Shown in pieces: positions 41,036 to 64,000 of a DNA stretch of 64,000 nucleotides. The stretch is taken from positions 1 through 64,000 of the forward strand of contig JAHFTX010000013.1 of NCBI GenBank assembly GCA_023265395.1. The letters run 5' to 3'. This DNA comes from Thermoplasmata archaeon. Lineage in GTDB: Archaea; Thermoplasmatota; DTKX01; JAHFTX01. Position 1 is the first letter of the stretch. The number at the start of each line of letters is the position of its first letter. The notes beneath the pieces were generated by a model that did no database searches, was not told where the DNA came from, and worked only from the letters and a program-made list of their open reading frames with translations. The position numbers were made by a program, and so were the translations under genes.

Positions 41036-41143
41036 GCAGAGGTAGCTCAGCCTGGTAGGGCGCAGGCCTGGAACCCGTCTCTTGGAGGCGGACCGTCAGC
41101 CTGTGGATGCAAGTCCTCGGGAGTTCGAATCTCCCCCTCTGCG
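41036..41143 (+). tRNA. tRNA-Ser(GGA) with a 24-base intron
   Basis: Acceptor GCAGAGG (41036-41042) pairs with CCTCTGC (41136-41142), discriminator G. D arm GCTC/GGGC, T arm GGGAG-TTCGAAT-CTCCC. Anticodon stem CAGGC (41063-41067) pairs with GCCTG (41099-41103) only if 41074-41097 is removed; the spliced loop is then CTGGAAA, anticodon GGA. The intron sits at 37/38, folds with CCGTCT/AGGCGG, and has AA^C and TC^A bulges near the junctions, a relaxed bulge-helix-bulge for the splicing endonuclease. The 15-base variable arm marks class II. The body closely resembles the tRNA-Ser(GCT) at 53 kb, supporting the identity. Confidence 0.85.
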
Positions 41144-60423: not shown

Positions 60424-61464
60424 ATGGCGCACTGGCGCTCACCAAGCGGGCCCGAGCGACCCAGTCGGCCGCGACTGATCGCCTCCCTGCTACTCCTCTG
60501 CCTCGTCGCGAGCCTCCTTGCAGCTGCGTTCGTGCCCGTCTCGGGGCTGAGTGGTGGGGGTACGACCCCCGCTGATTCGGTCTACGATTCAGCCACCAAG
60601 AAACCTGGCGCCGGCTGTACCTGTCATGGCGGCGGCAGCGCCTCGGCCACCGTCACCTGGCGTCTGGTCGGGCTGCCGACAAAATACGCACCGGCCAAGA
60701 GCTACTCGATCACCCTTGCTGGCTCAGGCGGCCCTGAGCCACTTCCAGGGCAGCACCAGGGTGGGTTCGCGATCCAGGCCTCGGTGGGGACGCTGACCCC
60801 GCTTAGCGGCGCCGGAGATGTCCAATCGGTCACCCCCGCCAGTGGCATGAGCGCCCTGACCCACACGGCTGACGGCAATTCACAGCGGCAGTGGAGCTTC
60901 ACCTGGACAGCACCCAAGGATGATGCAGAGGATGCCTTCTTCTACGTCGGTATCAACCTCGTCGATGGTTCGGGCGCGGCCGATGCACCCGATTCGTGGG
61001 TCACCTTCCAGCAGGTGAGCGAAGGCAATGGTGCTCCGCCAGCGAACGAAGCGGACATCTCGGAACTGGGCGTCCCGTTGCAGGCGTACTGGCTGGGCGT
61101 AATCGGGATCTTCTCGGTCCTGTTCACCCTCTTCCTGACATACTTTGTCATCCGCAGCTCGACACGGCACCACCGTGGGTTCCGATCCACGCGCGTGAAG
61201 CTCGCGGCCCCGCAGCCGACCTTTGGCGACCGCGTACTGATGGGTGCCGCCTTCCTCTCCCTGCTCGTGATGGCCGGGTTCACGTTGCGAGAGGTCCTCT
61301 ACGTCGGCCTGACAGTCCCCGGCAGGGTGGTCGTAGGGAACATCCGGACGTGGACGATTGGTCCCAACTACTGGGTCTACCTCTACTTGGCACACGTGCT
61401 GTTGCTCTTTGCCACCTTCGTCGCACTGCGCAACAAGAACTTCGCCTACCGGTCGAGCCCCTGA
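60424..61464 (+). CDS. Exported membrane protein with CxCH motif (choice-of-anchor V/Reeler-like)
   Basis: 346 residues. A signal anchor spans about residues 18-40. Cys65-x-Cys67-His68 (GCTCHGGG) follows directly, then a beta-sandwich to about 205 with GQHQGGFAIQAS and THTADGNSQRQW. Three membrane spans occupy the C-terminal third (about 220-345). Cytochrome c uses CxxCH; the one-residue spacing here is different and is a feature of the choice-of-anchor V group. Metal or haem binding is possible, not shown. The gene is paralogous to the next one and precedes a Rieske-like gene, suggesting a respiratory role. Confidence 0.7.
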   Translation: MAHWRSPSGPERPSRPRLIASLLLLCLVASLLAAAFVPVSGLSGGGTTPADSVYDSATKKPGAGCTCHGGGSASATVTWRLVGLPTKYAPAKSYSITLAGSGGPEPLPGQHQGGFAIQASVGTLTPLSGAGDVQSVTPASGMSALTHTADGNSQRQWSFTWTAPKDDAEDAFFYVGINLVDGSGAADAPDSWVTFQQVSEGNGAPPANEADISELGVPLQAYWLGVIGIFSVLFTLFLTYFVIRSSTRHHRGFRSTRVKLAAPQPTFGDRVLMGAAFLSLLVMAGFTLREVLYVGLTVPGRVVVGNIRTWTIGPNYWVYLYLAHVLLLFATFVALRNKNFAYRSSP

Positions 61465-61667
61465 ACCCCCGGCCTTCCCAAGGCCTGACGCATCCCCGCC
61501 GCGCTCCATTCGAGGGCCGTCTCCAATCTAGCTGGATTCCCCGCGCGTCCGCCGCGCTTGAGCCATTCCGCCACTTGAGGTCAGCCCGCCGTCGAGACTG
61601 TTGATTCTCGATGCATAGAGGCGACGATTTGCGCACCCATCCTGAGGGTTCGGCGGCTGCTACGAGG

Positions 61668-61677
61668 CTTTAAATAC
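61668..61677 (+). promoter_or_regulatory. Distal TATA box of the second CxCH gene
   Basis: CTTTAAATAC predicts a start near 61698, giving a leader of about 80 bases. Confidence 0.5.
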
Positions 61678-61702
61678 GCTCCCTCAGAATCAGCGGCGCC
61701 CG

Positions 61703-61710
61703 AGTATAAG
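61703..61710 (+). promoter_or_regulatory. Proximal TATA box of the second CxCH gene
   Basis: AGTATAAG predicts a start near 61732, giving a leader of about 47 bases. Two boxes 33 bases apart could give alternative starts. Confidence 0.5.
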
Positions 61711-61778
61711 AACCGGCGCGTAGGTCTGCGGGTCTGTTTGACCCATCGGCCCTACCAGGGAGCGGAGGCACGGCAACG

Positions 61779-63278
61779 ATGCGCTGGCAGCGACGTCGGA
61801 TCATCGCGTGCACGACCCTGTTGTTGTTGGTCGTCCTGCTCGTCGCCGGGGCCACCGTCGACGTCCTCGGATTCTCCGGCGGTGGGCCCACCCCGGCGCA
61901 GGAGGCGCGCACCACGGGTTGCACCTGCCACGGCCCGACCCCCAGTACGGTGGTCACCTACCGCCTCGAGGGCGTACCCCTGTCGTACATCCCTGGCGAC
62001 CGCTACGAGATCTCCCTGACCATCAGTGGCGGGCCCCCGGCACTCGAGGGCCAACACCAAGGGGGCTTTGCCATGGTCGTCTCCAACGGTACCTTCTCCC
62101 CCCATCCCGACTTCGCTGTGCAGACTCAGGTGTTCGACCTTGACGTCTCGACCTACAACCCCGCTGACTCGAGCAAGCAGAACGCCGTCACCCACACCTC
62201 CGATGGCAACCACCAGCGCTCCTGGAAGGTCCTGTGGGATGCGCCCCGGGGAAAGGGGAATGCCGTGTTCTACATCGCCGGTAACAGCGTCAACGGCAAC
62301 AACGTCCCTGACCTCGACGGCAGCGACCAGTGGGTGATGTTGCGGACGGTCTCGATCGGTCCCAAGATCGCCGCGGGCGAGCAGCCGCCGGGCCTGGGGC
62401 CTGAGCCGTTGCCCCAGTGGGCTTGGGACCTCGGCCTCCTCGCGATCGGTGCGTTCTTCCTGCTGCTGCTGATAGGCATGCCGCTGCTAAAGACCCACGA
62501 CTACCTCGAGCCGCGGATGGTCGAGCAGGGCGACTACGACTTCGAGGACATCGTCCTGGCCAGCCGCGGGGTGCTGCTGGAGCAGAACCTGGCGATCTGG
62601 CTGGTGGCAATGGTCTACTTCTTCTATGCGATCTTCGTCAAGGAGCAAGCCGTGGTGGTATTCGCGAGCGGCTCCGTTGCCTTGGTGTCCTTCGCCAACG
62701 TCCTCCTCGACGGGATCAACAACTACGGTCAACCGCGACCGGCCATGGTCGAGGAGGTCCGGCGCCTCCTCCTCTCGGGCACCCGTGCGCGCCTGGTGTG
62801 CGGGTACGCGGCCGCCTTGCTGTTTGGTCTGGGACTGGCCGCACAGGATGGATGGATCTCCCTTGCGTGGCCCCAGCTCAACCTCGGCTTAGGGATCGTG
62901 CTGACCTTCTACGCCTTCCACACCGGCTGGCAAGGGCCCTTCCTCCCCACGGCAGCGAGCACCAACACCCGGCTGGTCTGCGGCGGCGCTGCTGCCTTGG
63001 CCACTGGGCTCTTTGGCCTGATCGGAAGTCGCGTCCTGGCGGTGCTGCGCGTCGGCCTCGAGACGCTGCCGCTGAGCGCGGTGCCAGGGGCCAGCCCCTC
63101 AGTCGAAGAACTGGTCCGTCTCTCTGTCCTTTTCGTCGTCGCGCTGCTGCTGCTCGTCTACGTCGCCGCCCGCTCCCGCCATACCGCCGGCGCGCAGCTG
63201 CGGTCCGCCGCTGACCCCGAGCGCTCTGGCTCGGCCAAAGTCCTGCGTGGGGGCAAGGGGGGTGTCGCGTTTGACTGA
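61779..63278 (+). CDS. Polytopic membrane protein with CxCH motif, paralogue of the previous gene
   Basis: 499 residues from ATG 61779, with GGGAGCGGAGG upstream. Signal anchor about 8-30, then Cys48-x-Cys50-His51 (GCTCHGP), a beta-sandwich with EGQHQGGFAMVV and THTSDGNHQRSWKV, both shared with the gene at 60.4 kb, and about eight membrane spans from residue 215 on. FHTGWQGPFLP lies in a late loop. The membrane part is larger than in its paralogue, so the module has been joined to a different domain. It overlaps the next gene by eight bases and leads into the Rieske-like gene, so a respiratory-complex role is plausible but unproven. Confidence 0.72.
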   Translation: MRWQRRRIIACTTLLLLVVLLVAGATVDVLGFSGGGPTPAQEARTTGCTCHGPTPSTVVTYRLEGVPLSYIPGDRYEISLTISGGPPALEGQHQGGFAMVVSNGTFSPHPDFAVQTQVFDLDVSTYNPADSSKQNAVTHTSDGNHQRSWKVLWDAPRGKGNAVFYIAGNSVNGNNVPDLDGSDQWVMLRTVSIGPKIAAGEQPPGLGPEPLPQWAWDLGLLAIGAFFLLLLIGMPLLKTHDYLEPRMVEQGDYDFEDIVLASRGVLLEQNLAIWLVAMVYFFYAIFVKEQAVVVFASGSVALVSFANVLLDGINNYGQPRPAMVEEVRRLLLSGTRARLVCGYAAALLFGLGLAAQDGWISLAWPQLNLGLGIVLTFYAFHTGWQGPFLPTAASTNTRLVCGGAAALATGLFGLIGSRVLAVLRVGLETLPLSAVPGASPSVEELVRLSVLFVVALLLLVYVAARSRHTAGAQLRSAADPERSGSAKVLRGGKGGVAFD

Positions 63279-63651
63279 GACCGCCGAGGAGTACGACATC
63301 TACGCCCCCTCCTTCAAGGATATCAGCTTCTTCGAGCTGGAACGTCGTGAGCGCCATGCCAAGGTCGGCGATGTCTTGCGCGCCGAGCGCCGCTCCGAGA
63401 GCCCTCGGGCCTTCGGCATGGTGGCATTGATGCTCTTGGTCGAGGCGGTGCTGCTGGTCCTGGTGGTGCTCGGGCTGCTGTTGGCGTGGGACCAGCGCAC
63501 CGTCGGCCTGTGGGTCGCGACGATGTTCTTGGTCGCCGCGGTGATGTCGATCCTCTACCGCAAGTACTTCCAGCGTGACGTCATGGTCGCAAAGCGGCGA
63601 TACCGCAAGACGGTCCCAAGCGTCGACGTCAACTGGTGGAGCTTCAAGTGA
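63271..63651 (+). CDS. Small membrane protein ahead of the Rieske-like gene
   Basis: 126 residues from TTG 63271; AAGGGGGGTG lies six bases upstream. It overlaps the end of the previous gene by eight bases. An acidic cytoplasmic N-terminus (TETAEEYDIYAPSFKDISFFELE) precedes two membrane spans (about residues 55-75 and 82-100) and a basic C-terminus ending VDVNWWSFK. No family recognised. Position suggests a small subunit of the adjacent quinol-oxidising complex. Confidence 0.65.
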   Translation: MTETAEEYDIYAPSFKDISFFELERRERHAKVGDVLRAERRSESPRAFGMVALMLLVEAVLLVLVVLGLLLAWDQRTVGLWVATMFLVAAVMSILYRKYFQRDVMVAKRRYRKTVPSVDVNWWSFK

Positions 63652-63691
63652 GACCGCAGACAGGGACCTGGGCAAGGGGGAGGCCACGACC

Positions 63692-64000
63692 GTGACATCG
63701 GGGCAACCGCGCAAGGACTTCGACGAGCCCAACCTCAAGGAGCCAGAGGAGGCGACCGAGGTCGGGCAGATGAGCCGCCGCAAGGCGGTCCAATACATGG
63801 TCGCGGCCGGTGGCGTCGCCGCCGTCGCGGGTTCCCTCGCCGGCGGGGTCGTGACGCTCTTCAACCCCGTCGTCGAAGCGCAAGGGGCCCTCGAGACCGG
63901 TTTCATCTACAGCGTGTCGGCAGAGACCAAGAAGGAGGGTTCAAACTGGGTCGTCCCGCTCGACGGCCAGCTTGCGGCCGCGTCGCACTTCAAGCAGGTC
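63692..64000 (+). CDS. Twin-arginine, membrane-anchored protein, probable Rieske iron-sulfur subunit (3' truncated)
   Basis: GTG 63692 has AAGGGGGAGG eight bases upstream. The visible 103 residues have an acidic lead, then MSRRKAVQYMVAAGGVAAVAGS, a twin-arginine signal anchor, and the start of an exported domain (ALETGFIYSVSAETKKEGSN). This is the usual layout of Rieske subunits of quinol-cytochrome c reductases. The 2Fe-2S motifs lie beyond the window edge, so the call rests on layout. It belongs to the same run of genes as the CxCH proteins. Confidence 0.6.
   Translation, partial: MTSGQPRKDFDEPNLKEPEEATEVGQMSRRKAVQYMVAAGGVAAVAGSLAGGVVTLFNPVVEAQGALETGFIYSVSAETKKEGSNWVVPLDGQLAAASHFKQV

Follow-up and report, generated by a model that had tools for sequence, protein, structure and literature searches.

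A conserved Cys-x-Cys-His membrane protein encoded beside Rieske and cytochrome b genes in Thermoplasmatota, a candidate electron acceptor of complex III

The gene cluster at the end of the window

The stretch of DNA considered here (the window) comprises positions 1 to 64000 of contig JAHFTX010000013.1 (C24) of the Thermoplasmata archaeon assembly GCA_023265395.1, a genome of 2.78 Mb in 75 contigs, and its last genes encode two membrane proteins with a Cys-x-Cys-His motif (CxCH, or CX1CH where the spacing is at issue), called P1 and P2, followed by a small DUF7318 protein and a twin-arginine (Tat) Rieske protein (Table 1). An initial annotation, made from the letters alone, had described P1 and P2 as paralogues with a signal anchor, the CxCH motif, a shared domain containing GQHQGGFA and THTxDGN, and different membrane tails, and had placed after them a two-span protein and a Rieske gene. 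All of this holds: an N-terminal signal or anchor is found in both proteins, their domains are 44% identical over 202 aligned positions (E 1e-36), both motifs are present, and the tails differ. The membrane spans of P1 were placed from a structure model and hydropathy, and the first span after the domain is similar to that of the single CxCH gene of relatives.

The small proteins that relatives encode at the DUF7318 position give weak matches to that family. The Tat gene product contains the two boxes of a Rieske protein (CxH..C and C.CH), and its best solved relatives are the Rieske proteins of Thermus, although it gives no match to the Pfam Rieske model; the C[TP]H..C and CICHSS motifs are found in 66 of 67 relatives. 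Its start near 63692 is a best guess, with MSRRKAVQYM lying at 63770.

Contig C24 stops at 65416, inside a gene of immunoglobulin-like (Ig) Big_5 repeats that directly follows the Rieske gene. The final 558 bp of C24 align end to end with the end of contig C44 at 98% identity, and the two contigs therefore appear to join through this dovetail overlap, rather than by lying on one contig; the 1.6% mismatch would fit strain variation within a metagenome bin. The Big_5 frame runs on in C44 into cytochrome b6 (PF00033, 2.4e-41) and is followed by a 789-aa protein that unites PetD (PF00032, 1.4e-4, above its cut-off) with a 4Fe-4S and two CCG stretches (HdrD-like), and then by a gene for a multi-cluster ferredoxin. 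The order so assembled is P1, P2, DUF7318, Tat-Rieske, Ig-cytochrome b6, PetD fused to an HdrD-like Fe-S module, and ferredoxin. The genes beyond position 64000 are hence not unrelated to respiration, and the proposal of a respiratory complex whose redox subunits are unfamiliar is supported by them and by the conservation of the arrangement described below. Cytochrome b is present with both its b6 and PetD parts (across the 558-bp dovetail), and the place of a c1 or f subunit is occupied by the CxCH protein.

Table 1. Features of the cluster and of related loci. Numbers without a label are window positions; L labels are loci.
Feature	Position	Strand	Content or evidence	Occurrence
CxCH protein 1 (P1), 346 aa	60424..61464	+	signal peptide, CxCH, Reeler-like domain, ~3 membrane spans; NF041895 80 bits	
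CxCH motif of P1, residues 65-68	60616..60627	+	TGT ACC TGT CAT; sequence; invariant in alignment	
CxCH protein 2 (P2), 499 aa	61779..63278	+	same domain, longer tail with several membrane spans; NF041895 86.7 bits	
CxCH motif of P2, residues 48-51	61920..61931	+	TGC ACC TGC CAC; sequence	
Small two-span protein, DUF7318	63262..63651	+	PF24002 8.5e-11; start overlaps end of P2	
Twin-arginine Rieske protein, first part	63692..64000 (ends contig 64474)	+	CTHACC, CICHDS; Thermus Rieske 4e-4	
Cytochrome b6 with N-terminal extension of Big_5 Ig-like repeats	L003 4474-5415; L036 10085-11974 (-)			this genome
PetD fused to 4Fe-4S/CCG (HdrD-like) module, then ferredoxin gene	L036 7573-9942 (-); L044 12601-15381; L058-L137			this genome and Poseidoniales
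CxCH domain N-terminally fused to COX1	L038 7442-9844 (-); L039 7563-9848 (-); L176-L195			this genome twice; relatives
One protein combining CxCH domain with Ig repeats, DOMON and b561	L050 7365-10010 (-)			a relative
CxCH protein with P1-like tail, directly upstream of Tat-type molybdopterin oxidoreductase	L042 10028-13786; L043			same-class genomes
CxxCH or CX4CH in place of CxCH in family members	L144, L150, L159			

Conservation and place in complex III

A scan of GTDB genomes with an alignment of the PetD-HdrD protein, a query that favours loci having this fusion, yielded 80 loci, all of them in Thermoplasmatota-type archaeal records and, wherever the order was named, in Poseidoniales. 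Of these loci, 61 had 3 kb or more of upstream DNA, and in every one of them the genes for a CxCH protein, a small two-span protein, Rieske, cytochrome b and PetD/HdrD lie in this order on one strand. The CxCH gene is single in these 61 loci and doubled in this genome; the tandem pair is special to this genome and is not the conserved unit. The loci are related to one another and reduce to 17 representatives at 70% identity. The same front end of CxCH, small protein and Rieske is also encoded in families f4, f6 and f22, beyond f1 (that of this genome), f17 and f25, and at one f4 locus (L045) PetD is unfused.

The CxCH motif is invariant in the 62 orthologous proteins (44-99% identical), whose domains contain exactly two Cys, both within the motif, and among the 66 called genes of the window the C.CH pattern appears in P1 and P2 only. 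Given this uniqueness and this invariance, the motif is not a chance occurrence.

The position of the gene is informative. Of 30 complex III loci reported from the Angelarchaeales, which belong to the same phylum, 23 have a plastocyanin-like gene upstream of Rieske (PMC9038741), and this suggests that the position holds an electron acceptor; the presumed acceptor there is a cupredoxin, whereas the CxCH proteins have a Reeler-like domain. Marine Group II archaea have been reported to carry cytochrome b and Rieske genes and to lack a canonical bc1 complex (PMC6336850). These archaea are globally abundant, and a conserved candidate can now be named for the missing electron acceptor. According to our proposal, a complex III of the Rieske/cytochrome b type would have the CxCH proteins, tethered to the membrane, as its electron-accepting subunits in place of cytochrome c1 or f: cytochrome b6/PetD would oxidise quinol, one electron would go to the Rieske cluster, and the cluster would hand it on, outside the membrane, to the CxCH domain.

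With the b6f subunit cytochrome f (PetA) and the bc1 subunit cytochrome c1, the CxCH proteins share the place of their gene beside those for Rieske and cytochrome b, the signal peptide, a Cys-Cys-His close to the N-terminus, the C-terminal membrane anchor and the expected role of taking electrons from Rieske, and with cytochrome f also a beta-rich domain. The CxCH proteins differ from both by having CxCH in place of CxxCH, by their predicted Reeler fold and by the lack of a sequence match. Neither cytochrome was found by sequence in the PDB or is among the fold matches listed, and homology to cytochrome f, although considered, is supported by neither kind of match. In cytochrome f, the amine of the N-terminal aromatic residue is the sixth haem ligand; the predicted mature N-terminus of the CxCH proteins is frequently aromatic, which is a lead only.

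Fold and fusions of the CxCH domain

P1 and P2 both pass the model NF041895 (choice-of-anchor V; curated cut-off 42 bits) and stay just below the gathering cut-off of the Pfam Reeler family PF02014 (18.5 and 20.7 bits, respectively, vs 21). In a fold search with the P1 model, Reeler chains of F-spondin made up the top eight matches, and the same was found for a Poseidoniales relative (L105). The P1 model is of modest confidence, and low at residues 38-70, around the CxCH; that of L105 is better (mean predicted local distance difference test, pLDDT, of 81). The domain is, on these models, predicted to have a Reeler fold. PDB sequence searches with P2 and with a CxCH profile gave chance matches only, and a tblastn search of plasmids for bacterial relatives of the CxCH proteins gave no match; bacterial members of the family may carry CxxCH.

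The domain is not limited to complex III. This genome has seven matches to the family, two of which are N-terminal fusions to COX1, and at least one of these adjoins a COX2 protein with the CuA pattern; such COX1 fusions account for 16 of 20 sampled long CxCH frames of relatives, all with CX1CH. In a relative (L050), the domain is joined to DOMON and cytochrome b561, an arrangement similar to that of the animal ferric reductases of the FRRS1/SDR2 type, which are Reeler-DOMON-cytochrome b561 proteins; P1 and P2 have neither DOMON nor b561. Genomes of the same class encode a CxCH protein just upstream of a molybdopterin oxidoreductase. The fusions link the candidate acceptor to the terminal oxidase, and we infer that the CxCH domain of complex III would pass its electron to the matching domain on subunit I of the CuA-type oxidase, and from there to oxygen. 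Tethered or fused carriers that make a soluble cytochrome c unnecessary are familiar from caa3-type oxidases and the actinobacterial bcc-aa3 system, where the carrier is a class I cytochrome c, either fused to subunit II or present as the subunit QcrC; here, it would be a Reeler-like domain on the front of subunit I.

Two other roles have to be weighed against that of a carrier. The NF041895 family is described merely as a surface-protein domain with varied anchors, its name gives no redox role, the solved Reeler domains come from an animal extracellular protein, and some relatives bear RCC1 or Ig repeats, all of which would suit a generic adhesion or anchoring module that lies beside respiratory genes without any redox part. 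This is nonetheless very improbable, being contradicted by the gene order in 61 of 61 loci, the repeated COX1 fusions and the invariant CxCH, and the family is linked here with complexes III and IV. The protein might instead serve both complexes as an assembly or thiol-redox factor, acting in metal delivery or thiol reduction and not as a carrier of the chain; this would agree with a C-x-C pair able to cycle between thiol and disulfide, and a general assembly module might adjoin or fuse with various redox enzymes, as this domain does. We regard it as unlikely, since stable fusions to COX1 and to DOMON-b561 are better explained by electron transfer, the gene sits where an electron acceptor would be expected in a tightly kept order, and the adjacent His is invariant, although thiol exchange does not need it. 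It is likely, and well supported, that the CxCH domain is an electron carrier, whichever of haem or copper it contains.

Haem or copper at the CxCH motif

The initial annotation held that cytochrome c needs CxxCH and that CxCH would be a different haem or copper site. The first statement was too strict, CxxCK and CX15CH haem motifs being known (PMC3601427); as to the second, the balance leans towards a covalent haem c on a shortened motif, with copper as a rival. In the proposed mechanism, the carrier would be a haem bound covalently by both Cys of the motif, with the His as axial ligand, installed by the cytochrome c maturation (Ccm) system. This genome has genes for CcmA, B, C, E (with the archaeal CxxxY motif) and F, a set that is enough for cytochrome c maturation in Methanosarcina (PMC9084895).

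In 293 Thermoplasmatota genomes, all searched with the same four families, strong CxCH-domain matches and CcmE occur together in 73, the domain alone in 26, CcmE alone in 11 and neither in 183 (p 1.6e-34, the genomes not being independent); counted by family, the figures are 10, 2, 6 and 25 (p 2e-4). CxxCH proteins, gauged through PF13442 and PF09699 as stand-ins for an exhaustive count, are scarce: class I cytochrome c (PF13442) has a single weak match among the 293 genomes and none in this one, and paired CxxCH motifs occur in six. The main argument for haem is that the same genomes contain both a haem machinery lacking its ordinary substrates and a conserved Cys-Cys-His domain lacking an assigned cofactor. 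Together with this, variants with other spacings at the same position favour covalent haem c: of 115 family members, 111 have CX1CH, three CX4CH and one CX2CH. The CxxCH member and one CX4CH member were checked, and both are of the surface-protein kind. L144 and L150 are Reeler surface proteins with RCC1 repeats.

The same acceptor role in complex III could be filled by copper at the Cys-x-Cys-His, in a Reeler beta-sandwich unrelated to cupredoxins. Two Cys and one His could bind the metal, the P1 model has copper-bound YcnI among its weaker fold matches, the related Angelarchaeales have plastocyanin-like proteins upstream of Rieske (PMC9038741), and a genome of family f4 (G005, 98% complete) holds the cluster and has no CcmE match. 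On the other side, neither P1 nor P2 matches any cupredoxin family even at E 10, the domain tracks CcmE in genomes almost devoid of other cytochromes c, CxxCH and CX4CH occur at the site, and beyond the motif the domain has no strictly conserved ligand. Copper appears improbable in view of these points.

Several observations count against covalent haem or the wider proposal. Canonical CxxCH is absent, all 62 orthologues having CX1CH; a literature search found no description of haem attachment to CX1CH, and System I of E. coli goes wrong when the Cys spacing is changed (PMC3601427). To the f4 genome without CcmE can be added family f31, with strong domain matches and no CcmE. The His of the THT motif is replaced by Gln in 5 of 62 orthologues, which leaves no strictly conserved sixth ligand. 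Some family members are RCC1- or Ig-repeat surface proteins in which a respiratory role is not evident, and the link between C24 and C44 is a dovetail, although the same genes are contiguous in relatives.

Among other possible roles for residues of the domain, the THT His is doubtful as an obligatory ligand given those Gln replacements, the His of GQHQ was rejected, being unconserved while both Cys and the adjacent His are conserved, and disulfides from the CxCH to other residues were rejected in a domain with just two Cys.

Taken together, an acceptor subunit resembling c1 or f, with haem bound covalently at CX1CH, is the best explanation overall and somewhat more probable than not in our judgement; as to the cofactor itself, covalent haem c is the best reading but unproven. 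The chances are about even that these proteins form a new class of c-type cytochrome, with a Reeler fold and haem held through CX1CH, serving both as a subunit of complex III and as an entry domain fused to COX1, in a respiratory chain of Poseidoniales and relatives that has no conventional cytochrome c. If haem is indeed the cofactor, a group of archaeal cytochromes c has been overlooked by searches based on CxxCH, the Ccm system must accept a one-residue spacer, and some unexplained choice-of-anchor V/Reeler proteins would gain a redox reading.

A few further observations concern the surroundings of the cluster. In the f4 genome without a CcmE match, a small protein with a blue-copper-like C-terminal motif (YCTLH) overlaps the end of a CxCH gene (L054 207-1603, minus strand). 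For Angelarchaeales, HdrD-like and RnfB-like genes have been described in the vicinity of complex III, through which ferredoxin electrons might enter (PMC9038741); the same Fe-S modules lie beside cytochrome b here, and both this genome and Poseidoniales have the HdrD-like one fused to PetD. This fusion, with its ferredoxin gene, is a possible entry for ferredoxin or thiol electrons into complex III. The Big_5 extension of cytochrome b6 is present in this genome and absent from the Poseidoniales proteins. Elsewhere in the window, a 108-nt Rfam tRNA match at 41036-41143 (plus strand), not called by ARAGORN, is perhaps an intron-containing tRNA gene.

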